Of a DNA stretch of 64,000 nucleotides, positions 4,336 through 64,000 are shown piece after piece. The number at the start of each line of letters is the position of its first letter. The stretch's first letter is position 1. This DNA comes from Hydrangea macrophylla (lineage: Eukaryota; Streptophyta; Magnoliopsida; Cornales; Hydrangeaceae): the NCBI GenBank assembly GCA_033977485.1, contig CM066982.1, positions 33,272,218 through 33,336,217 of the forward strand, written 5' to 3'. The translations under genes and the position numbers were made by a program. The notes under the pieces were generated by a model that saw only the letters and a program-made list of their open reading frames with translations, searched no databases and had not been told where the DNA came from.

Positions 4336-4353
4336 TCCCCGGCAACGGCGCCA
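4336..4353 (-). promoter_or_regulatory. primer-binding site, tRNA-Asp
   Basis: The minus strand reads TGGCGCCGTTGCCGGGGA, which matches the complement of the last 18 nt of plant tRNA-Asp(GTC) as I recall it. The match stops there, which is the usual stop caused by m1A58. It lies 6 nt inside the LTR end. Confidence 0.85.
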
Positions 4354-11959: not shown

Positions 11960-14594
11960 TGTGGATATCGCAATTTTCTTACCACAGCTTTTCTTTAAAT
12001 TTCAAAATAAATTTTAAATTGTTATCCAAATACGAGTCGCCACTTAATTTTTAAAAGGAAAATTAAGAAACCATCTTAAAAGCAGACTTATCTTTTGCGA
12101 AACCAAAGATTAACTAGGTCCGGGGATTATGGAATGAGAGAAGAAGGAGTCCGACGGACTAAAACACCCTCTCTCATCCTATCTCGTGATAGGCCTCTAC
12201 TCAACGTCCTTTTAATCAAACTATTAATCTAAGCATGTCCTCAACTAATACATAGATATAAATATACATCACACAAGCATGTTGAAATGGTGTAAAATTG
12301 TTAATGACAAAATATCATCCAAAACCAAGTAGTTCAACTAGCAAGCAATATGATATGCAAATAGGGAACTAAGAAACTTACCCGGGATCCAGCTGCGAAT
12401 TTGAAACCTACAATGCATACAAAAAGGAATTCCTAATAAAAGGGTCTCTAATCACATATAAACACATAAGGCAAAACATGACCTAATCTAAGGTGTCGCG
12501 CATGAGGTCGAAAAATCAATAAAATTAAAGAATAATTAAGCTAGGGAAGAGTCAAGAGATCATACCTCATCAGCGCTACAAAACAAGGGTTAGTCCACAT
12601 GCTTTAGAAATGATATACAATACCAAATGATCATTTCTAAATATCTAGGTTAATTCTATCAAGTAGAAGAAATGACATATCAATAATTCTAAGTATAAGT
12701 ATCAATCTACATAGATGAGTGTACATGATTACGTGGTAACAAGAACAAACTATTGGATTATTCATTGGTTTGGACCTTTTAGCCTCTGAATTTAAGCTTA
12801 ACTAATCATTATTGAATCATGGTTTAAGCCTTAACTCATGAAAATATCATTTGAGCCATTATTTACAAAGTTTACCAAATCTGTCACAAAAATATAGAAA
12901 TTCTAGAGAACAGACCCAGATTTAAGAATTTGAAAAGCATACTTTCAACTGTTTGATCTTGATGATTTTTAGACACAAGATTCCCTTATGAGTCTAGTTT
13001 CTAACCCAAAAAGAAAAATCAAAGATCAACGGTTCAATCTCTGGGAATTAGGCAAACACTAGACATCATTCAGGAATTTCCAACTCTCTGTCCAGAAATT
13101 TTGTATGATTTTTTAAAAATAGTAAAAAGATCAGAAACACTTTGATCTTTTTAGGGTATCTTCCCAACACATTAAACTATCTATAAAAAATTATTTGATG
13201 CCAAGAAAACTTGATTAAGACTCTAATTTATTTATTTCAAAGAGGTGTTACTGTTCTGAAATTCTGGACAGATTGTTGTTGTTTGGCAGAACTCATGACC
13301 AAACCACTTTAAACATGAAATCTCATTAAAACAAAAATTACAGTTGTAGAACTTTGAGTTATAGTCACTTTCCCGTTGGTTTCATTAAGTTCCAACGGTT
13401 TGATGTTTAACTAAAAATCTTTGATGAAAAGTGGTCGATGAACTCACTGCATCTTTGTCTAATTTAACTTTCGCGTACTAATTTCAACTACCAAGCCATT
13501 AAACTTGGCTTTAGTTAAACTAATTCTTCTACCATTTGATGGTCATGGAAGACTAATGACTCTTATGCTTGTAGATTTCAATGGAGTATGGAGACACTTT
13601 ATGAAATCTAAAGGTAATGAACCCAAATCATGATGACAGACTTGGACTTATTAACTATACATGTTAAACATCAACTTTAATCCCCTTGTAAACCTTGAAC
13701 TTACGAGAGAGCTAAAGGACTTCATATCAAGAGGTTCAAATGAGACATTGGAGGTCTTATGAATCTCAAGAGGTGAATATAATTAAAAGAAATGACTTAA
13801 AACTCAAGTATTATCCAAGTTGATACATATTTAAAGACTAATTAGTCTAAAGTCTACCTCCAAATATCCTCAACTTGGTGATTTTGAAGGATTTCCACAA
13901 ATAAAACAAGCTCTTCAACTCTTAAATCACACACAACTTCCTTTGTCACTCTTATGAAGGTAAATCTTAGGTATGTTTGGAAATTTTGAGAGGTTGAAGA
14001 TGAAAAGATTCAAGAATAGGTTGGGAGATTCAAGAATTTCATCTCCATGCAATGGGATATTCACCCTCTTTATATAGGCAAATTTAAAAAGGGTATTTTA
14101 GTCATTTCAGGGGCAAAAAACACTGATTTCGTATGTCCTTTTGATGGTACAAAACGTGCTGTATTATAGTTGTAGACTAAAAAATGCGGCACTCACTGGA
14201 GATGGAAGCGGCACTTGGTGTGCCGAAACGACACTTGATGAATGCCGTCACGGCATTCATTGATTACCGTGCCGGCATTCAGAGAATGCTGCGGACAACT
14301 CCAGAGATTGCCATTTTTTAAATTTTGTGGCGTTTGAAGGAAATTGGCGGCAGTCACTAACTGCTGTTGCGGCACTGACTGACTGTCGGACGGCAGTCAT
14401 AGAGTGCCGCAACGGCAACCCGAGAGTGCTGCAGAAGTGTGCCATGTGCCGTTTTCTCTATTCCCTCTTTTTCTTTCTCTTTTTCTTCTTTCATTCTTTT
14501 TGTTTGAATTGAAGAGCCTTTTGAAGAGCTTGAATCACATTTGGAAGCCCTAGATTAGTCGGGCATTGCTCTCATCCGATCTTAGAGGTAATAC
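11960..14594 (-). repeat. Tat-type solo LTR (main part), minus strand
   Basis: Reverse complement of the LTR seen at 58706-61343 (same TATA-region text, palindromic TGCCG stretch, and the GGCCTCTACTCAA block near the 3' end). The 3' end is ...ATATCCACA at 11960. The 5' tip is separated by copia copy 2 and lies at 22704-22749. Total length is about 2.68 kb, close to the 2.64 kb of element C's LTR. No internal region or second LTR is present and element E is continuous on both sides, so this is a solo LTR. The left side lacks an obvious target duplication: E reads GGATGTAAG on one side and GTGGGTC on the other. TATA box (minus) at about 14067-14076. No coding sequence. Confidence 0.8.
14590..14594. 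repeat. target site duplication AATAC, left of copia copy 2
   Basis: AATAC matches AATAC at 22704-22708 on the other side of the element, inside the Tat solo LTR. Confidence 0.85.
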
Positions 14595-33984: not shown

Positions 33985-35865
33985 AAGCTATCAAATCCTC
34001 GATCTTGGTATAAGTCGTCTATTGTAGCCTATAAGTTACCGATTATACCCTTGGTCATGCTATAAGTCGTCTATCGCAGCCTATAAGTTACTGATCAAAT
34101 CCTCGGTGTTGGTATAAGTCATCTATTGCAGCTTATAAGTCACCGATCAGAATTCTCGATCTTGGTATAAGCCGTCTATCGCATCTTATAAGTTACCGAT
34201 CAAATCCTCGGTCTTGGTATAAGTCATCTATCGCAGCCTATAAGTCACCGATCAAATCCGCAGTCTTGGTGTAAGTCGTCAATCACAACCTATAAGTCAC
34301 CGATCAAATCCTCGGTCTTGGTATAAGTCGTCTATCGCAGCCTATAAGTCACTGATCAAATCCGCAGTCTTGGTATAAGTCGTCTATCGCAGCCTATAAG
34401 TCACCGATCAAATTCTTGGTCTTGGTATAAGTCATCAATTGCATCCTATAAGTCACCAATCAAATCCTCGGTCTTAATATAAGTCGTCAATCGCACCTTA
34501 TAAATCATCAATCAAATCCTTAGTCTTGGTATAAGTCATCTATCGCAGCCTATAAGTCACCGATCAAATCCTCGGTCTTGCTATAAGTCGTCAATCGCAG
34601 CCTATTAGTCACTGATCAAATCCTCGATCTTGGTAAAAGTCGTCTATCGCAGCCTATAAGTCACCGATTACAAATTCTCAGCCTTGGTATAAGTCGTCAA
34701 TCGCATCCTATAAGTCACCGATAAAATCCTCGATCTTGGTATAAGTCATCAATCGTAGCCTATAAGTCAGCGATCAAATTCTCGGTCTTGGTATAAGTCG
34801 TCAATCATATCCTATAAGTCACCGATCAAATCCTCGGTCTTAGTATAAGTCGTCAATCGTAGCCTATAAGTCAGCGATCAAATTCTCGATCTTGGTATAA
34901 GTCATCAATCGCATCCTATAAGTCACCGATCAAATCCTCAATCTTGGTATAAGTTATCTATCGCAGCCTATAAGTCACCGATCAAATCCTTGGTCTTGGT
35001 ATAAGTCGTCTATCGCAGCCTATAAGTCACTGATTACTAATTCTCGATCTTGGTATAAGTCGATAATCGCATCCTATAAGTCACCGATCAAATCCTCGAT
35101 CTTGGTATAAGTCGTCTATCGCAGCCTATAAGTCACCAATTACAAATTCTCGATCTTGGTATACGTCATCAATCGCATCCTATAAGTCACCGATCAAATC
35201 ATCGGTCTTGGTATAAGTCGTAAATCGTAGCCTATAAGTCACCGATCAAATTCTCGGTCTTGGTATAAGTCGTCAATCGCATCCTATTAAGTCACCGATC
35301 AAATCCTCGGTCTTGGTATAAGTTGTCAATCGCAGCCTATAAGTCACTGATCAAATTCTCGGTCTTGATATACGTCGTCAATCACATCCTATAAGTCACC
35401 GATCAAATCCTCGGTCTTGGTATAAGTCATCTATCATAGCCTATAAGTCACCGATCAAATCCTCTGTCTTGGTATAAGTCGTCTATCGCAGCCTACAAGT
35501 CACCAATAAAATCCTCGATCTATGGTATAAGTCATCTATCATAACCTATAAGTCACCGATCAAATCCTCAGTCTTGGTATAATTTATCTATCGTAGCCTA
35601 TAAGTCACCAATGAAATCCTCGGTCTTGGTATAAGTCATCTATCGCATCCTATAAGTCACAGATCAAATCCTCGGTCTTGGTTTAAGTTATCTATCGCAG
35701 CCTATAAGTCACCAATCAAATCCTCGGTCTTGGTTTAATCCGTCTATCGTAGCCTATAAGTCACCGATCAAATTCTCAGTTTTGACATAAGTCATCTATC
35801 GCAACCTATAAATCACCAACCAAACTCTCAGCTTCTGGCATAAGACGTCGATCGCAGTCTATATA
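33985..35865 (+). repeat. 52-bp tandem repeat array, about 36 units
   Basis: The unit is TATAAGTCGTCTATCGCAGCC + TATAAGTCACCGATCAAATCC + TCGGTCTTGG, about 52 bp, repeated head to tail for about 1.88 kb with 5-20% variation. Each unit contains TATAAGTC twice, so it is itself a diverged duplication of about 26 bp. ACCGA...TCGGT can form a short hairpin. It lies about 550 bp upstream of the 3' LTR of element B. Confidence 0.93.
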
Positions 35866-36411
35866 AATATAGGGTCATTGAATCCAAAGCGATTCTGGCT
35901 TTTCTACAAACCTTGACAAGACACCAGAGTATAAGACGCGAAGTGCATCTCAATTTAATCATTTTTACAGTGTAAAATAAGGAAAATGCATCTGTATCAA
36001 TCATAGCCTTCCCGGAACAGGATGACGTCATAATAGAAAATTTAAGGCATAAAATGCATTCTTGTCACTAGAGGAGAGCAGTATGATTTCGAATCATCAC
36101 GTTTAGGAGCATAGAGCACGCGACTGCTTGAGCATGTGCATCATAATAGGATAGGTGCATTCATCCGTATGATTATTTGTGCTTAGGTGTTGTCCCGTGC
36201 CCGAACTACGTCCTGGTCTGATTCCCGTTTGGATACGTAGGAAGCTCACCATTGAGCACGACCAAAACTGACCGTCTCCCCAAATGTTTTTGCAACGCAT
36301 TTTGTTTTTACCTAAGTTCAATAGCCCAGTCAAAAGGCTTGTCTTCACACAGGCTTCGACATTCACTTGTTATACGCGTTGTTTTCCAAGCTCTGCCGAA
36401 GATGGGCAAAC
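35866..36411 (+). other. Tat-like 3' non-coding region, downstream part
   Basis: No coding sequence. A third copy of the GATTCCC...GGATACGTAGG box is at 36218-36240. The region ends GATGGGCAAAC immediately before the LTR start, the likely but poor polypurine tract. Confidence 0.6.
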
Positions 36412-39400
36412 TGTAGACACCCCAATTTTGACCGAACTATTAAACTTAGGGGGGATTTACCTCTGGAGATCAATGATGAATATGTCTCGTCGGAATCAAA
36501 ACTCTTACAAGCAATCTGATTCTCTTCCAAGAAAAATCTCGGTCCAAAATTGCCCTTTTCAGCTAAAAAGACCAAAATTCTCATTTACCCGTCACTGTGT
36601 AGACCATGAGTTTTGAACACGTATAGGAACACGACAATGTTCTCGGAGCAGCTTAAAACCATTTTAAAAAGGATAGAAATTCAGCACGAACCCCGAAAAA
36701 AAGTCAACAGTCGACACAATGAAAAGTCAATGGGTCAAAAGGGGTCAATCATAAAATTTTCAAATTTCAAGATAAAAAGTCCCGTTAATTGTTTATTGGG
36801 TCTCCCTTATGCTAGAAAAGATTTTTAAGAATTTTTAAATGAAAGGAACATTGAGAAATCGAAAGGTCTTTAAGAAGAATTGTGCGGGAAATTGGAAACT
36901 TTGCCTTCGGAGGGAGAGTTGACTTTTTTCCTTAAGGATTTTGATTTTTTAAATATTTTTATTGAATCCAAATAGGAGTTATTTCCTTAAGTACTTTTAA
37001 TGTCTTAAGTAAATACACTAGTTAAACGACATTTACTTAAATGACATGAAATGAAATTAAGGTGCTGAATTGCTGTGAATAGTGCTGTGTTGCTGTGCAG
37101 CGACAGTCAGAGTGCCCGAACGGCAGTCAGTGAATGCCACTGCGGCACTCGCTGAGTGCCGCGCCGCTTCCATCTTCATTGAGTGCCGGCCTGGGCAAAT
37201 TTGCATTTTTAAGTAAAAATTCTTCTCCAATCTTTGATCAAATGAATGCACCAAACGATGTCATTTTTTGTGTACGTGTTCACTACTCTTAGGTCATGCA
37301 AACCATGCTCCCACTATCCCTAATTGACCTATCTACCCTTATCTTAACCCCTAAGATAATGAAAGTCTATAAAAAACCCCATTTTCTCTCTTTTTTTTGG
37401 CGGGGGAGGGGGGGGGGGGGGGTGAAGACTTGAATCTAGAGAGAAAGACTTGAATCTAGAGGAATGAGACTTGAATTTTAAAGGGAGAAGCTGAATTTTG
37501 AAGATGGAGTTTTGTTCTTAGAGAAATATAGAGAGAAACCCAAAAACTCCATAGAAATCTTACCCAATTCACCCAAATTCATCAAATCTCCATTGAAGAA
37601 CCTTGAAGCTTCAAGGAAGAAGAAGAAGAGCATTGCTTGTAAGGCTTGGATATCTCCAAATCAATCAAATCCTGAAAAGATCTAGAGGTTAAATCATTAT
37701 TCCTATACTTATTTACATAATTCAATCACAAATTCATAGATCTAGGGAGCTTTTACACATTTTCAAAACCTCTCTTCTTACCTCATTTCATCACACACCA
37801 CATAGAATTTGTGATTGAATTTGCATATGGTATTTCATTAGTTTGGATGAAAACAAGTCTTGGGTTTAAAATAAAACTAGTTTGTAAAAGAGTTTTTACT
37901 TGGACTTTGTCAAATCAATCTTGATTTTACTTTATCTTTGTCAATATTTCTTTTGGAAATCTATGAGGTCTCCAATATCTCATGAGATTTCTTTAAGATT
38001 CATCTATTAGTCTCCTATAATCCTATGATTTATATGGGGATTAGGTTGATCATAGTTATACCCATACATGTTTGATGGATTCAAAGTCTTAATTCATGAC
38101 TTGGAGCCTTCAACTTGAGAATCCCATAGAACTAGCTCTATGTTCTTTGAAGGTTCATGTGGGTTTGGTTTTGCTTAAGTCTCCAAGGACCATTAATTTA
38201 GGAGGAGAACTTAGTTAAATGAATACATATTCCTCAAGGATCATATGTTTGAGAGAGGAGTTAGATGTAGGTTTTTATAGTTTAATTATTAGATTCAAGA
38301 GAACCCAAATGTTCAAAAGTTTAGGGTTGAGTAAGACCTTAGGATTCTCTTGCTAGATCTTCAAATATGAGATCTATGATGGAGATCCATTAAGGCTAAA
38401 TCCATGAATCTCTTTGTATTTCATTACTTAGTTCAATATTCATAATCATACTTGATCTTAATTCTCTCTAGAATCATGGATCAAGTTTGATTTAAATTAT
38501 GAACACCAAGTCAATATTGGTGCAGTGAGCTCATGAACCCACTGAGATCAAAGACTTTTAATTAAATCATGCTCCATGGGAATTGAGTGAGACCAATTGG
38601 AGAGTGTTCATAACTCATATATCTACCACCACATGTTTTGTTTTAATGAGATTCCATAGATAACATGGTTTGGTCTTATGATTTGTGAGTAGTTTACTCT
38701 CTGTTCCAAAGATTCAGAACAGTAAGTTCGTGTTAAAATGAGTGATTCAGAGCCTTAATAAAGTTTTCTTGACCTCAAATAATTTTTTCTAAGTAGCTCA
38801 TTGTATAAGGAAGATACCCTAAAAAGATCAAAGTGTTTCTCATTTTTTTTTACTATTTTTAGAAAATCATACAAAAACTTTGCACAGAGAGTTGCAGATT
38901 CCTGAGTGATGTCTATTTTTTCCCTTATTCCCAGAGATCTAACCGTTAGATCTTTGATTTTCTTTTTGGGTTAGAAACTAGACTCACATAGGCTTAATAT
39001 AATCAAAATTCATTAAGATCCAACCGTTGAAAATATTTTATTCCTATTTTTAAAAGTCTGGTCTGCTCTCTGTAATTCTTACAACACTGTCATAGTTTTA
39101 ATAACCTTTGTAAATAATGAATCAAAAGTCTTTTCTATGACCTAAGACTTAAACCATGTCTTAAATAATGTTAAATGAGCTTAAATCTAGAGGCTATATG
39201 ATCCAAATTAATGAATATCTCATAACTCATGATCATGCATTCATTCATACATATTGATACTTATAAGTAGGACTCATCTTTGGTCCAAGTCGCACTTAAT
39301 TGAACTTAATTGATCATGACTCGGGGTTCTTTATGGTCATGTAGGGCATATGGCATTTCTATATGGACATTACATTGGCTCCTAGTTGAGACTTGTATAT

Positions 39401-40115
39401 CTATAGAGGTGCCATGGTCCCAATAGCTAAAAGGAATTCATAGTTTTGTCAAATCCTCTCTATTTGATAGATTTAAGCTAGAAGCTTAGGATTGAATATT
39501 TGATATCTTGTTTGAAGTATGCGGACTAATCTTTGTTTTGTAGCGCTTTTGAGGTACGATTTTCAACCCCTCTCTAGTTTATTTATTTCTTGATTTTATT
39601 AATTTTTCGACTCCATGTGTGACACTTTAGAATTAGGATTTTGCCTTATGTGTATATATGTGATTAGAGATCTATTCTCTAGGAATTCTATTTTGTATGC
39701 ATTGCACGTTTAACATTCGCGGCAGGATCCCGAGAAAGTTCTCTAGTTCCATTGTGCATATCATGTCGCTTGCTAATTGAACTATATGGTTTTGGATGTC
39801 ATTTTATCGTTAGCAATTTTGCACCCTTTTGACATGCTTATGTTATGTATACTTATATCTATGTATTAGTTGAGGGCATGTTTAAATTAATAATTTGATT
39901 AAAATGGATATTGAGTAGAGGCCTATCACAAGATAGGATGAAAGGGGGTGTTTTAGTCCGTTGGGCTCCTTCCCCTTTCAATTCATAATCCCTGGACCCA
40001 ATTTATCTTTGGTTTTGTAAAAGATCAGTTTGCTTTAAAACTGGTTTTTCCCCTTTAAAAATTAAGTGGCGACTCTTTACATTTTAAAAAGTGGGCCCAA
40101 ATGTCGGTATCCACA
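36412..40115 (+). repeat. 3' LTR of Tat-like element B
   Basis: 3704 bp, TGTAGACACC...TATCCACA. TATA box TCTATAAAAA at 37366-37375, followed by a G-run (37399-37432). U3 has the palindromic TGCCG stretch (37085-37190). The 3' part shares the GGCCTCTATC block and AAATTAAGTGGCGACTC with the LTRs of A and C. It is about 1 kb longer than those LTRs, mostly in U3 and downstream of the TATA box, so it is a distinct subfamily. No coding sequence. Confidence 0.82.
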
Positions 40116-41103: not shown

Positions 41104-41455
41104 TTACCTATCTCGAATACCCAAACCATTCTTATTCTGTTGCCCAACGACCTGTGGAAATCTAGCTATGCCTTGCTGCCTTCGACCTAAGCCCATGCCT
41201 AGGAAGAACTTCATATTATTCATAATAGGAGCTATCATGGGATTTGTGTAATCATCAAGGCACGGTGCAACTTTTCCCAGTGGATCTTCCATTTCCAAGG
41301 CATTGAACTTATCGAGCTTGAACCCACTAAGAGTAGGGTCTTGCTCAGGCAATTGTATCTCTAACGCGACTCCATCTTGAGCAGTGCGGATCCCAGAATC
41401 CCTAAATAGAACCACTTTATGATTTTCCATAACCATCTTGATCTTTTGGTGAAGG
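41104..41455 (-). pseudogene. G-patch-like region of Tat pol (element H)
   Basis: A 110-codon ORF on the minus strand ends with MNNMKFFLGMGLGRRQQGI and GLGIRDR (about 41130-41230). The GMGLG-x3-QG pattern is a G-patch, a glycine-rich nucleic-acid-binding motif found between protease and RT in several retroelements. The preceding part is acidic linker. The ORF is cut upstream by the hAT element; its continuation is right of 42326. Confidence 0.65.
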
Positions 41456-41463
41456 GTCGAGGG
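41456..41463. repeat. 8-bp target duplication of hAT element (left)
   Basis: GTCGAGGG, repeated exactly at 42319-42326. Confidence 0.9.
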
Positions 41464-42318
41464 CAGTGGCGGACCCAGAACTATAATTTAGTGGGGGCGA
41501 AGTTTTTACGGGGGTTCGGGGGCAGCGCCCCCGACCGATTTTTTTTTTATTTTTTAAATATTTTTTTGTAGAAATAGTATAATTTTATGTGAGGTTTTTG
41601 CATAAGTTTCGTGTTTATATAGAGAGTTGGAAATTCTGTATATTTTTTTTGTCTATCTCACGGAAAAGGACCATGAGGAGGGGTTTTTTTTTTTTTTTTT
41701 TTCGCTAAATAGGAGCAAGAGGAGGTTAATGGTGGATATGTGGTCTTTGAGTCTTTCGAGGGTTTCTACGAAACTTCAAACTTCATCTGCGTCGGAACAT
41801 TTTTTTATTTTCATTTTTTTAGAAATGCTTTGTGGTACACTAGGGGACTCTAGGTGGTCTTTATTTCGCTTCTTGGTCTTTTATTATATAATATATACAT
41901 ATATACACATAATATATAATACTGTAAACTTAAGAGTGGGAACGAGTTGCAAATTAAAACCTTGGCAAAGTTCTTCAAAGTTCTAAAATTTACAAAAAAA
42001 GTAAGCTTCTGAAATTTCTATTTCAGTAGTGCTTGCTAAATGACCTAACAGTGGGGCGAGGTAAACAATTAACTTCTAATCATAATTCAATTGGTCCCAC
42101 TGTATTTGACCTGACCCCACTGCCACATCATTTGGGAAACACTTCTGGGATAGAAATTTGGGAAGTATATCATTACTCTTTACAAAAAGCCCCCGAATTA
42201 ACTGAAAATCTTAATCAAAATCCACATTTTTTTAAAACTATCATATATAACCAATTTTTTCCCGAAAGTTCAGTGGGGGCGACTGCCCCCGCTCGCCCCC
42301 ACTGTCGGTCCGCCCCTG
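41464..42318. mobile_element. non-autonomous hAT-like DNA transposon
   Basis: 855 bp with terminal inverted repeats CAGTGGCGGACC / CAGGGGCGGACC (11 of 12) and a perfect 8-bp target duplication, both hAT hallmarks. Subterminal G-rich stretches (GTGGGGGCGA) occur at both ends, with a GGGGGCAGCGCCCCCG palindrome near 41519-41536. No transposase is encoded; a 119-codon ORF inside (41627-41986) is low complexity and not credible. Confidence 0.88.
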
Positions 42319-58705: not shown

Positions 58706-61343
58706 TGTAGACACCCCAATTTTGACCAAACGTCGGGTTAAGGGAAATATTACCTCTAAGGTCCGGTGATGACAATGGCAAACTAATCTAGGGTTTCCCA
58801 AGGTGATTCAAGCTCTTCCAAAAAGCTCCTTCAATTCAAAACAAAAAAGAAAAAAAGAAAAAAAGGAAAATAGGGTAAAATGGCATATTACAGGAGCTGT
58901 GGCAGTCTCGGATTACCGCTACGGCACTCTCTGGAGTGGCGGACGGCATTCTATGACTGTCGATAATTCCAATAAATGCCGCCAAAAAATGGATTTCTAC
59001 AGAAAAATGGCAGTCTGTGGAGTTGTCTGCGGCACTCATTGAATGCCGTACCGGCATTTACTGAATGCCGTTGCGGTAATCAGTGACTGCCGCTTCCATC
59101 TCCAGTGAATGCCGCATTCTCCAGAAAATAGCTGTAATATAGCACGTTTTGTACTCTCAAAAGGACAGTCTAAATTAGGGTTTTTTGCTGTGAAAATACT
59201 GAAATACCCTTTTAAAATTGCCTATAAATAGAGGGTGAATATCTCATTAAAAAGGATCTCTTTTTTTATTAATTAAAATTTGGAAATTTAGAATCCTTAG
59301 TTTGATTTCTACTTCAAAAGTTTTCCAAATTAAGAGGAGTATTAGGGAGAATTTGAGAAGATTAAGAAGAAAGAGCTAGAAGAAGAGCTTGATTAGTCTT
59401 GAGAAATCCTAGAGCAATCAAAGAGTTGAGGATAATTAGAGGTAAACTCTAGGTTACTTAGTTTCATTTCATTAATTTGGGTCAAAATAGTTTAAGGCCT
59501 AAAGGTTTCTTGAAGTAGAACTTTGATTTTCTTCCTCTTGATTTCAATTTTTCATTAGGATTCATAAGACTTCCAATGCCTTACTTGAATCCTTGTGTTT
59601 AGAATCCTTTAATATCCTCATAAACTCATGATTTTATGAGGGGATTGAAAGTTGATATTAGTATATTGGGTCAATGAGTTTAAACTTTTACTCATAGTTT
59701 GAATTCATTACCTTGAGATTTTATGAAGTTCATTCATACTTCATTAAAATCCACAAGTATCAGTGTCCTTAGTCTTCAATGACCATCAAATGGTAGGAGA
59801 AGTAGTTTGGTTTAAGTCCAACTTCATGGTTTAGTAGTTGGAATTAACAAATAAAGGTGTATTTGGTAAATGATACAGTAAGTTCATAAACTGTTTTTGA
59901 TCATAGGTTTTTAGTTAAAAATCTAACTGTTGGAATTAAGTGAAACCAACGGGAAAGTGTCCATAACTCAAAGTTCTATCACTGTGATTTTTGTTTTAAG
60001 GAGATTTCATGTTTACAGTGGTTTGGTTGTGAGTTTTGTGAGACAACTATAATCTGTCCAAAGTTTCAGAACAGTAACATCTTTTTGAAATGAGTAAATC
60101 AGAGCTTTAATCAAGTAATGATGACTCCAAATATTTTTTTATGACGTTTAATGTGTTAATAAGATCTCCTAAAAAGATTAGAGCCTTTTAGATTTTCTTA
60201 CTATTTTTAGAAAATCGTGCAACAACGCTGGACAGAGAGTTATGAAATTCTGAGTGATATCTTGTGTTTGTTTAATTCCCAGAGATCTAACCGTTGAAAC
60301 TTTGATTTTCTTTTTGGGTTAAAAACTAGACTCACAGAGGCTACTTGTGTCTAAAAAGTATCAAGATCAAACCATGGGAACCATGCCTTTTATTTCTTTT
60401 AAGTTCGTATCTGCTCTCAGTAATTTTCATAATCTTGTCACAATTTTAATTAATCTTATGAATAATGGTTTGAATGGTATTTTCATGAGTTAAGGCTTAA
60501 AGCACGTTTCAATAATGATTAGTTAAGCTTGAATTCAAAGTTTAAGTGATCCAAATCAATGAGTATTTCATAATTTGTTCTTGTTTATGTATACATTCAT
60601 CCACGTGACTTGATATTAAGATTCATTTGATTTAAGTTTAATCACATTCGATGGATTTAAGCTAGGAACTTAGGATTATCATCGAACTTTATATCTTGTA
60701 CATTATGTGGACTAACCTTTATTTTGTAGCGCCAATGAGGTATGATCTCTCGACTCTCCCTTAGTTTACTTATTCTTTGATTTTATTGATTTTTCGACCT
60801 CATGTGCGACACCTTAGAATTAAGATTTGCCTTATGTGTATATATGTGTATTAGAGACTCTCTTATTAGGATTTTAACTTTTGTATGCATTGCACATTTA
60901 AATATTCGGATGGACCCCGGGTAAGTTCTCTAGTTCTCAATTTTGCATACCATATCGCTTGCTAATCGAACTATTTGGTTTTGAATGATATTTTGTAAAT
61001 TAGCAATTTTACAACATTTCAACATACTTATGCGATGTATATTTATGTATTAGTTGAGGGCATGCTTAGATTAGTAATTTGATTAAAAGGATGTTGAGTA
61101 GAGGCCTATCGTGAGATAGGATGAGAGAGGGTGTTTTAGTCCGTCAGACTCCTTCATCTCTCATTCCATAATCCCCGGACCCAGTTTATCTTTGGTGTCG
61201 CTAAAGATCAGTTTCCTTTTGAAATGGTTTCTTAACTTTCCTTTTAAAAAAAATTAAGTGGTGACTCATTTGTTTTTGAACTTAGAATTTGAAAAGAAAT
61301 TTTAAAAGAAAAGCTGTGGGTAGGAAAAATTGCGATATCCATA
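58706..61343 (+). repeat. 5' LTR of Tat element C
   Basis: 2638 bp, TGTAGACACCCC...ATATCCATA (the final CA reads TA; LTRs A and B end CCACA). TATA box CCTATAAATAGAGGG at 59221. U3 contains the palindromic TGCCG zone (58890-59110). The R-U5 part carries a repeated GAGATCTAACCGTTG... motif and the GGCCTCTATCGTGAGATAGG block (61108-61130). The ORFs within it overlap the palindromes and are not coding. Confidence 0.85.
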
Positions 61344-61346
61344 ATC

Positions 61347-61396
61347 TAGCGACTCCACTGGGGATCGAACCCAGAATCTCTGGTTTCGCAGACCAG
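61347..61396 (+). promoter_or_regulatory. extended primer-binding site, 50-nt antisense copy of tRNA-Arg 3' part
   Basis: TAGCGACTCCACTGGGGA matches, with one G-to-A change, the tRNA-Arg primer site usual in Tat elements. The complementarity continues to 61396. Read on the minus strand it gives an anticodon arm CTGGTCTGCGAAACCAG, a short variable region, a T-arm with TTCGATC loop, the acceptor 3' strand and CCA. All stems pair (CTGGT/ACCAG, CTGGG/CCCAG). From memory this is plant tRNA-Arg(ACG), positions 27 to 76, with G at position 34 and A at 37. The match ends next to position 26. Confidence 0.82.
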
Positions 61397-62525
61397 AATT
61401 TTTGATTTTTGGGTTCACTCGAGGATTAGACTTAAAAAACATCCTTTTGATTGAATTACTTAATCTTTGTGTGCCTGTTGCATTTCACTTGCATGTCCAA
61501 CCAGTCAATTACACGGAACTATAACCTTGGAGGCTCGGGGTAACCCGGTCGGTCAAGTTATCATGGGACTGTGTGATCACCCTTGATCTTGTACCATGAT
61601 TTGGTATATGAAGCATCCTATCGGATGTGTATCAAGGGTCCCTTATTTGACCAAAACCCAGCCTTTGCATGGTAGCTTCCATAAAACATTTCAAGTCTTA
61701 GGGAATCAATTCTTGAATAAGATTATGTGCTAGGAAGTTTTGTGTGCCCGGAAGGGGTTAGTTGAGGTGATGACGATGCTCACTTGATGTAAGACGTGCA
61801 ACCTTTTAATCACCTTTTAGCAAACCCCTCATGTCCCATGACATTTGGGGAACATGCTGAACCTTGATTATAAGATTACATCTCTTATATCCTGTTAGCT
61901 AAGCATCATTGACCTTGTATGCATCCAAATTCATACAAAATGCAATAATTATCCGTTCATGTGATACTTCTACCCAAGAATTCAAAGTTCACTGTTCATG
62001 ACAGATTTTGATTTTTTTTATCCACTCTTATCCAAATATGTTTTGAAAAAAATCACTCTTTTAAAGAAAAGATTCAACATTTTTGAGAATTATTTTTTAA
62101 AGATCCCATCATCTAGAAAGATGCTTTTCAAATGAATTTCAAAAATTTTAAAGAAAAATGTTCGAACCTTTCAAGGGGTAATGAGGATCACAATGAAAAG
62201 AGAAATTAGCGCATTTGGCGTGGGTGAGGATTTTATATGCTTATGTGTCTATTTTCTAGGACTAGAATTTTCTTTTCTTTTGCATATAGAGTAGGCACAC
62301 ACGCACACATGCACTGCATCCTTGTGACATGTGAACCATCTCATAAAAAAGTCTTTCAAAATTTATATAATAAGGGATTTTGATAAAAAAAAAATAATAA
62401 AAGGAAAATAAAAAAATCTTTTGAAAAATATTTCCTTTTGTAGGGCAAATATAGCATCCAGTTCGGGCACAATTTGGTTTAGAGGTCCCACTGCAAGATT
62501 ATCAAGAAGAGAAGAGGATAGTGAA
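61397..62525 (+). other. untranslated leader of element C
   Basis: About 1.1 kb with no ORF beyond chance; AT-rich with a poly-A/T stretch near 62380-62430 just before gag. The antisense ORF 62363-62635 has no recognisable features. Confidence 0.7.
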
Positions 62526-63570
62526 ATGGCAGATGAAAGGAATGACAGAGAAGTAGCAGAGTTAAGGACGCTGTTAGAACAGCAAGCAGAACAAATGAGG
62601 TGATAGGCGGAGAATATGAACCGAATGATGGTCATGATAGAAGCGATAGCACGCCCGTCACCAGTAATGAGCCCGCCTCACAATGACCCACCAAATAGGG
62701 AAGAAGGGTGGTATGATGACCTAGAGATGCCAAGGGGCGAGGCTCCCAGAGCAGAAAGGGAAAAGTTGGAAAGGAAAAAGACTGACAAAGAGAGGATAAT
62801 GACCGAGAAGATCGAGAAGCTGGAAAGGGTGATGTGTAAGGCTCAAGGGGTCGACACTTATCTGATGGAGTTGGAAGGTCTGTATGATGGGGTCCACGAA
62901 ACGCTGCCAGCCAGCTTTAAGATGCCAGTTTTTGATAAGTTTGACGGAACGGGAAATCCTCGCAGTCATGTAAGGATGTGTATCGGAGCTTTTCAACCAA
63001 GCAGACTGAGCACCGCTATGATGGCTGTCTTGTTTCAAAAAACTTTAACCAGAGTTGCTTTATCCTAGTACCTCACTCTTGAACCAAGCAAGACCCGGGT
63101 TTAGGAAGAAGTGATCAAAGCATTCGTGGCACAATATGAGTACAATCAGGACTTGGATGTCACGGTCCGAGATTTGGAAACCACTAGGCAGTGAAACAAG
63201 GAGTCATTCGCTGAGTATCTGAGTAGGTGGAGGGGAAAAGCAACTAAGATGGTACAGAGGCCATCCGAGAAAGATTAGATTCGCATGTTAATAAAGAACC
63301 TTCAGCCCATTTACCAAGAGAAGATGAGATTCCAGTCGATCAACACCTTTGCTAAGGTTTTCGATGTGGGGACGAGAATAGAGGACGCGATTCAAGAAGG
63401 GGTGATTGAGAAAAAGGAACAGCCGAGCATATATAGGAGGCCAAATTATGGGTCGAATGGGGGACATTCGGGGGGGCCACTCTGGTCCCACCGACGTCAA
63501 TGCATTAAGCGGACCGGAGAGGAAATTCGATATAACACCAAGAAGAGGAGGGGACAAACAGTCGAGGAAG
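62526..63570 (+). pseudogene. Tat element C gag, capsid part
   Basis: The start is ATG 62526 (MADERNDREVAEL, coiled coil). Two adjacent stops, TGA 62601-62603 and TAG 62604-62606, interrupt it; the same frame continues through acidic/Lys-rich sequence to the gag capsid region (SFKMPVFDKFDGTGNP, CIGAFQPS, about 62910-63005). Further in-frame stops occur at 63066, 63102, 63192 and 63276. The last capsid part (LIKNLQPIYQEKMRFQ, FDVGTRIEDAI) is at 63285-63420. A frameshift between about 63480 and 63560 leads into the finger region. The stop at 63066 sits where a Trp is expected. Confidence 0.82.
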
Positions 63571-64000
63571 TTCTCAGACTTGGGGGTATCACTGTCGATC
63601 GCCCTTGATAGGTTGACAGCAAAGGGGCACCTTCGTCCGTTGGAGCCTCGGCCTTTACCGAATCCACTTCCACCGACCTTCCGAGAAGATCTCTATTGCA
63701 AATTCCACCAGCAAAAAGGTCACTCTACGGATCGGTGCACAAGGCTGAGACATGAAATCCAGGACCTCATTGATAACAAGGTGATAACCGAGCCGCTTGT
63801 CAAAACTCCTAATGTTACTAGGAATCCGTTGCCGAATCATCATGCTGTACCGCCACCACAAGACCTTTATTCCTTGGGGATAGAAGAGCCGACCTTTGAT
63901 CCATCCAGGCTAATCATTAAAGCCGGGACACCAAGGAAGCCTTATCGGATGCTGGAAGATCCGAAAATCTGTACCCTGGACTGGTGGGTTCAAGAGACTA
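63571..64000 (+). pseudogene. Tat element C gag C-terminus, open to the window edge
   Basis: In the new frame (from about 63565) it reads DLGVSLSIALDRLTAKGHL, a Pro-rich stretch, then the finger YCKFHQQKGHSTDRC (63694-63738; C-X2-H-X4-H-X4-C), RLRHEIQDLIDNKVI, and stays open to base 64000. Element B carries the same finger spacing at 30320-30365. The frame should continue into protease outside the window. Confidence 0.8.

Follow-up and report, generated by a model that had tools for sequence, protein, structure and literature searches.

An LTR-retrotransposon family of Hydrangea macrophylla whose primer-binding site continues, as an antisense copy of tRNA-Arg(ACG), through the anticodon arm

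In a family of LTR retrotransposons of Hydrangea macrophylla, complementarity to the primer tRNA does not end with the 18-nt primer-binding site (PBS): it continues for a further 32 nt, through the T arm, variable loop and anticodon arm of tRNA-Arg(ACG), and its one family-wide difference from the host's genes for this tRNA falls opposite position 34, a site of editing to inosine. The 50-nt stretch is tRNA-derived and widespread, and the extension is a trait of the whole family as sampled in the host genome. It is probably a fixed copy of over-extended plus-strand strong-stop DNA, made by an ancestral reverse transcriptase that would have passed m1A58 of its own primer.

The element and its extended primer-binding site

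The window (that is, the whole 64,000-nt stretch of DNA analysed) contains the 5' part of one such element on the + strand. Its 5' LTR (58706..61343) begins with TGTAGA and ends with ..TCCATA (..TCCACA in most other copies); the end was placed by alignment with other copies and the start from its resemblance to the beginning of the LTR in copies L125 and L132. A 3-nt spacer, ATC (61344..61346; window copy compared with other copies), leads to the 18-nt PBS (61347..61364), the complement of tRNA-Arg(ACG) positions 76-59 with a G>A change at 61348 and with the acceptor-stem dinucleotide CA, as in host gene L061. The 32-nt extension (61365..61396), the complement of positions 58-27, follows directly. 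This order of an LTR, a few bases, and the complement of a tRNA 3' end inclusive of CCA is that of a tRNA-Arg-primed LTR retrotransposon. The element presumably belongs to the Tat/Ogre (OTA) clade of Ty3/gypsy, a label that comes from the original prediction; an open stretch at the place of the expected gag-like protein (62607..63068, +) has no Pfam match, and we take it to be gag-like from its sequence features. The window ends at 64000, before the pol of the element, and the 3' LTR lies outside it.

The original prediction had described 61347-61396 as a 50-nt site antisense to tRNA-Arg, and the stretch is indeed there, contiguous with the 18-nt PBS and antisense to positions 76-27: compared with antisense gene L061 plus CCA it has 2 mismatches in 50, at positions 75 and 34, the former change being found in 3 of 88 extended copies. 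The extension is contiguous with the complement of CCA, which the host genes do not encode. A check against a tRNA covariance model, proposed along with the prediction, also turned out in its favor: the minus strand of 61350-61416 matches the Rfam tRNA model at 33.0 bits, above the gathering score of 29 (E 7.3e-05 in a 1001-base search), the part of the match past 61396 not being a tRNA-derived 5' half. ARAGORN found no tRNA gene in the window, and the site has neither the whole cloverleaf nor the 5' half that would mark a tRNA gene or pseudogene. A site used for half-tRNA priming would start within the anticodon region, where the tRNA is cut; this one starts at the CCA end, 3 nt past the LTR. 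An Athila-type primer site near 4336-4353 had been described as stopping at exactly 18 nt, and judged by eye this is borne out: the match to tRNA-Asp runs for 18-19 nt and then breaks.

Just downstream of the extension, at 61404..61416 (+), lies a near-copy, in the sense orientation, of tRNA positions 45-56 (GATTTTTGGGTTC in the window; many copies have GATTTTGGGTTC, and the tRNA itself GATTCTGGGTTC). The 3' end of tRNA-Arg is matched a second time within the LTR: a PBS-like motif, AAGTGGTGACTC, at 61256..61267 (+), which in many other copies reads TGGCGACTC, the first 9 nt of the PBS. In the form AAGTGG(C/T)GACTC it stands near the 3' end of all three related LTRs of the window (61256-61267, +; 40064-40075, +; 12034-12045, -). 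Another LTR of this group (start near 36412) is immediately preceded by a tandem array of ~52-bp units (33990-35912), presumably of the kind that Ogre/Retand elements have in their 3' regions. At 41104-41484 (-), near an LTR, an open stretch gives a weak G-patch match (E 0.00043; 20.6 bits, the cut-off being 22).

Spread through the host genome

The 18-nt site has 5455 + 5312 exact matches in the genome; a 39-nt core has 3097 + 3016 = 6113 matches with up to 3 mismatches, tRNA genes included. Reversed-pattern controls yielded 0 + 0 in both instances, which excludes chance matching. The extension is present in each of the 40 best-scoring of 3361 candidates retrieved with a 161-nt query that contains the site. 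The original prediction had asked whether it recurs in other members of the family, and it does so in copies chosen by downstream sequence alone: a query taken from 61420-61600 provided 2852 candidates, of whose 40 scored places six had already been sampled, and all 34 of the others have the extension. (All of this sampling was confined to the H. macrophylla genome.)

A third sample consists of 76 of the first 100 places listed among the 10767 exact 18-nt sites. Six of these (L173-L178) were picked by PBS type and comprise 1 extended copy, 1 of family X1, 3 of family X2 and 1 other; the remaining 70 divide into 13 fully extended copies, 18 of X1, 35 of X2 and 4 others, with no partial extension seen. 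Pooling the three samples gives 88 distinct extended copies (40 from the query with the site, 34 from the flank query and 14 from the PBS sample); these last 14 were picked as extended, and it is the 13 of 70 not chosen by type that speak to frequency. In forced alignments the LTR ends and leaders of X1 and X2 are 53-60% like those of the extended family. X1 was considered as a family with a decayed extension and rejected as such: the TGGTTTC that it has in common with the extension lies within chance, 649 of 5000 shuffles doing equally well. The LTR motif described above recurs in 9 of 10 X1 copies, 11 of 13 X2 copies and, in the extended family, 30 of the 37 copies (39 given) that allowed the site to be placed; in the examples it stands 95-135 nt upstream. 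The LTR ends of the three groups are nevertheless only ~56-60% alike.

Host tRNA-Arg(ACG) genes

A search of the host genome (2.22 Gb, 19 contigs) with a pattern left free at positions 34 and 37 found five tRNA-Arg(ACG) genes; a second pattern, for tRNA positions 1-45 with at most 3 mismatches, returned the same five and nothing else. (Genes diverged past the limits of both patterns would be missed.) All five have G26, A34, A37 and A58. They represent two isodecoders, distinguished by the inner end of the acceptor stem and identical at positions 8-65: read on the PBS strand, one gene (L061) is CA and four (L062-L065) are TG. The original prediction had relied on a plant gene with G37, and proposed a two-base signature of modification, at 34 and at 37. 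For this host G37 is wrong, and only half of the signature survives: the element differs from all five genes at 34 and agrees with their A37. Misreading at m1G37 is accordingly rejected; site 37 is unchanged in the element because the gene already has A there.

A bacterial or phage source for the tRNA sequence was also considered and rejected: 53 anticodon-arm matches turned up in 52 stretches of viral contigs, some of which are not tRNAs; every one has A34 and, by eye, none has the host's T arm and acceptor. Related elements were looked for in viral contigs with a 23-nt PBS pattern and with the gag-like query, and none were found.

Position 34 and the end at position 27

Opposite position 34, 84 of the 88 extended copies have C (tRNA-strand G34) and 4 have T; the window copy has its C at 61389 (+), where the gene would give T (A34). 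Outside the isodecoder pair there are 48 sites, and 34 is the only one that departs from the genes in more than 4 of the 88 copies. That the element should have G where the gene has A34 was predicted, and is borne out by all five genes found. In coconut, tRNA-Arg(ACG) carries I34, determined by mass spectrometry, and Cm32 (PMC10298058, accessible text), and inosine is read mainly as G by the three reverse transcriptases tested in another study (PMC10877575, accessible text). A base change at an edited site is the mark expected of a reverse-transcribed mature tRNA, and the combination of A34 in the gene with G34 in the element fits the copying of a mature molecule with inosine read as G. Were pairing with inosine under selection, as has been proposed for Bianca (PMC6317226, accessible text), the same base would be expected, so that the mark fits the mature tRNA under either view. 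A single fixed difference is slender evidence: an unrelated A-to-G change would hit position 34 approximately once in 48, and approximately once in 140 when the particular base is also required.

The other boundary also lies where it had been predicted, exactly before G26. The tRNA match stops at 27, beside G26, in the copies examined: opposite 26 there is A in 85 copies, G in 2 and T in 1, and the C expected opposite G26 occurs in none of the 88. The modification m2,2G26 is reported in several other coconut tRNA-Arg species (PMC10298058, accessible text), and Arabidopsis has the enzyme for m1A58 (PMC7475180, accessible text). By analogy, a block at m2,2G26 would give an end at 27; the end points of the stretch suggest that synthesis passed m1A58 and came to a stop at m2,2G26.

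PBS and extension across copies

Is the primer tRNA still written into these elements? The 18-nt PBS appears to be overwritten from tRNA to this day; this is best shown in X1 and is weaker in the extended family. Among the 100 exact PBS places listed, a hand count gives 79 of type TG, 15 CA, 5 TA and 1 CG, the ratio of TG to CA genes being 4 to 1. X1 copies are ~97% alike, and two of them, L119 (CA) and L110 (TG), pair on a quick tree of 2074 columns (support 89, not starred; branches 0.001 and 0.0041) despite differing at both isodecoder sites; L107, the other CA copy of X1, sits elsewhere on this tree, which has no starred branch. That near-identical copies differ at the isodecoder sites points to overwriting of the PBS from tRNA. 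In samples of the extended family free of choice by PBS type and of the CA query, CA is found in 1 of 47 copies (1 of 34 flank-chosen, 0 of 13 from the PBS sample), which is below the gene ratio and below the 8 of 53 in X1 and X2 (six type-chosen places left out): either overwriting is rarer in the extended family or the family is older than the present genes. The 40-copy tree of the extended family, which is weakly resolved and built from a sample enriched for CA by its query, scatters the CA copies, and in its best form the PBS type changes 16 times (shuffled mean 17.8); its starred branches force only 4 changes for CA and 4 for TG.

Two minor PBS types call for comment. A third isodecoder behind the TA type was considered and rejected, only CA and TG genes having been found; TA is common to the sister copies L085 and L100, and we read it as decay of TG. 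The X1 copy L173 (G000:C1:4404923) has a CG-type PBS. This type is absent from the five tRNA genes found, and may have arisen by mutation or as a patchwork of the two isodecoders.

The extension seems to be an old inherited copy that is not rewritten in each cycle. The same extension changes, at 35 and 36, occur in copies L125 and L132, whose sequences agree to 98% over 2.6 kb and to 94% over a further 0.4 kb, while the ~2 kb upstream of their LTRs are unrelated, which makes them separate insertions; a mutated extension common to two separate insertions seems, therefore, to have been inherited.

How might the extension have arisen, and why is it there?

Over-extension is the likely origin, and the course of events can be pictured as follows. 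An ancestral reverse transcriptase, copying a tRNA-Arg(ACG) primer still attached to minus-strand DNA, would have passed m1A58 and gone on through the T arm, the variable loop and the anticodon arm, reading inosine 34 as G; plus-strand synthesis would have halted before position 26, and the longer product, on entering a new insertion, would have become the template for thousands of descendants. Thereafter the 18-nt PBS could be overwritten from whichever isodecoder does the priming, the extension being mostly inherited through the genomic RNA. Read-through, stop, the role of modifications as the cause of both, and a single origin are what we infer from the state of present-day copies. We are much more hesitant about a bolder proposal, namely that the lineage has made a 32-nt over-extension sequence out of a mis-stopped strand-transfer product, such that ends at m1A58, in the anticodon loop or before G26 would each complete transfer, and that the copies would record a past state of inosine; this we consider unlikely. 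If true, it would amount to a record of tRNA editing kept in DNA and to a natural way around the m1A58 stop.

The alternatives fall on two sides, retention and source. The 32 nt might be kept as a working over-extension sequence, since DNA overrunning m1A58 would still pair at the second strand transfer, or since a longer duplex would hold the primer better (a simple estimate that ignores modifications puts the duplex with the tRNA at -109 kcal/mol for 50 nt vs -39 for 18 nt), with the C opposite 34 kept by pairing with inosine. Lentiviruses and spumaviruses have complementary sequence beside the PBS that is read in this way (PMC13191261, accessible text), and the primer site of Bianca reportedly pairs with the inosine of a half tRNA-Ile (PMC6317226, accessible text). 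Columns with a minor base in at least 4 of 40 copies number 0 of 32 in the extension, 11 of 44 in the LTR end and 9 of 63 downstream (Fisher test, extension vs LTR end p 0.002, vs downstream p 0.026), so that constraint on the extension is possible; however, a rank test against the downstream stretch gives p 0.10, and this 40-copy set had been retrieved with a query spanning the extension. Among the 34 flank-chosen copies, the mean pairwise identity of the extension is 0.976, which makes it no more conserved than the PBS minus its isodecoder sites (0.982) or the downstream sequence (0.978-0.986, this being the basis on which these copies were selected), the LTR end standing at 0.85-0.89. The subfamily of L125 and L132, with its altered anticodon loop, still transposed, and the extension is able to fold back on itself. 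A function in over-extension is improbable as the reason for retention. That fold is the substance of a second possibility, which we regard as doubtful: the tRNA-derived stretch may be kept as the 5' arm of a stem-loop following the PBS. GAACCCAGAATC can pair with the downstream GATTTTGGGTTC, which matches tRNA 45-56 at 11 of 12 positions, around the anticodon stem-loop; in the window, 61404-61416 can form a stem with 61367-61378, enclosing the anticodon hairpin. The predicted minimum energy is -27.0 kcal/mol for a stretch of copy L071, and the window copy reaches -25.7 (z -2.4). As for the sense arm, it may owe its origin to snap-back copying at the anticodon stem or to selection for pairing. 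A sense match this good to tRNA 27-73 is rare, being found in 8 of ~6000 random 31-mers of the window, in a null test that was, however, set up after the match had been seen; X1 and X2 fold hairpins of other sequence directly after their PBS, at -12.3 and -2.7 kcal/mol, the latter weak. A hairpin alone leaves the tRNA identity of all 32 nt unexplained.

As to source, the stretch could be a fragment of a tRNA-Arg gene or pseudogene captured by recombination, with an ordinary mutation at 34. It differs from the genes at a single site, as such a fragment might, but it runs unbroken into the CCA complement of the PBS, the pattern for positions 1-45 (up to 3 mismatches) matches the five genes only, with no element recognisably carrying the 5' half, and the lone change falls precisely on the inosine site; capture is most improbable. 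Highly unlikely, too, is that the extension is recopied from the tRNA in every cycle, with G34 held constant thereby. Its slight variation among the 40 copies and the prevalence of G34 (84 of 88) are what recopying would produce; the separate insertions L125 and L132 with their common mutated extension speak against it, and the isodecoders offer no differences at positions 27-58. Over-extension followed by inheritance remains the preferred reading.

One copy deserves separate mention: in L117 a repeat of AATCTCTGGTTTC stands in place of the sense arm, a slippage or template jump inside the tRNA-derived stretch.

Comparison with known systems

The titles and abstract openings searched, a coverage that omits most subscription journals, mention neither a fixed extension that reaches through the anticodon arm nor an inosine mark within a PBS starting at the CCA end; a search for literature text with letter strings of the tRNA or PBS found none either. 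HIV-type over-extension sequences are the nearest known kind. Those of lentiviruses and spumaviruses are short. Like the sequence described here, they lie directly downstream of the PBS, match the primer tRNA past position 58 (as do all 34 flank-chosen copies at their PBS) and are linked to an incomplete stop at m1A58; in the accessible text on them, over-extension is tied to DNA ending at psi55, whereas here it spans 32 nt through the anticodon arm, has its mark at the editing site 34, and belongs to a plant LTR retrotransposon (PMC13191261). In HIV-1, m1A58 is the main stop for plus-strand DNA, minor products reaching into the T loop and to position 37 (PMC13191261, accessible text). Plus-strand copying that goes too far, in vitro sometimes to position 37, is likewise described for HIV-1 in PMC1785368; with A58U tRNA, according to the accessible part of that paper, integrated proviruses had no extra tRNA sequence, whereas here such a product would have been integrated, and is present at thousands of places.

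Other systems offer partial likenesses. Bianca, a Ty1/copia element, is also a plant LTR retrotransposon with a primer site matched to a tRNA with inosine 34, but it is described as using a half-molecule of tRNA-Ile (PMC6317226, accessible text); here complementarity starts at the CCA end, 42 nt before position 34 is reached. In yeast Ty1 and Ty3, too, contacts with the tRNA go beyond one short site; their sites are bipartite, and the PBS is reportedly not tRNA-derived (PMC5371799, accessible text), whereas the isodecoder switching seen here points to overwriting from tRNA, as in retroviruses. For mammalian endogenous retroviruses the question has been raised whether PBS changes are misreadings at tRNA modifications, and the accessible text states that known modifications do not match the changed positions (PMC7472051); here, the single change does match one.

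In the standard account strand transfer depends on the m1A58 stop. Here is a natural case in which that stop seems to have failed and the result was viable, spreading to copies in their thousands; an edit made to a tRNA can, it suggests, be recorded in transposon DNA. Isodecoder switching, for its part, is a cheap genomic test of whether a PBS is overwritten from tRNA, and it is here that yeast Ty elements and retroviruses reportedly part ways.
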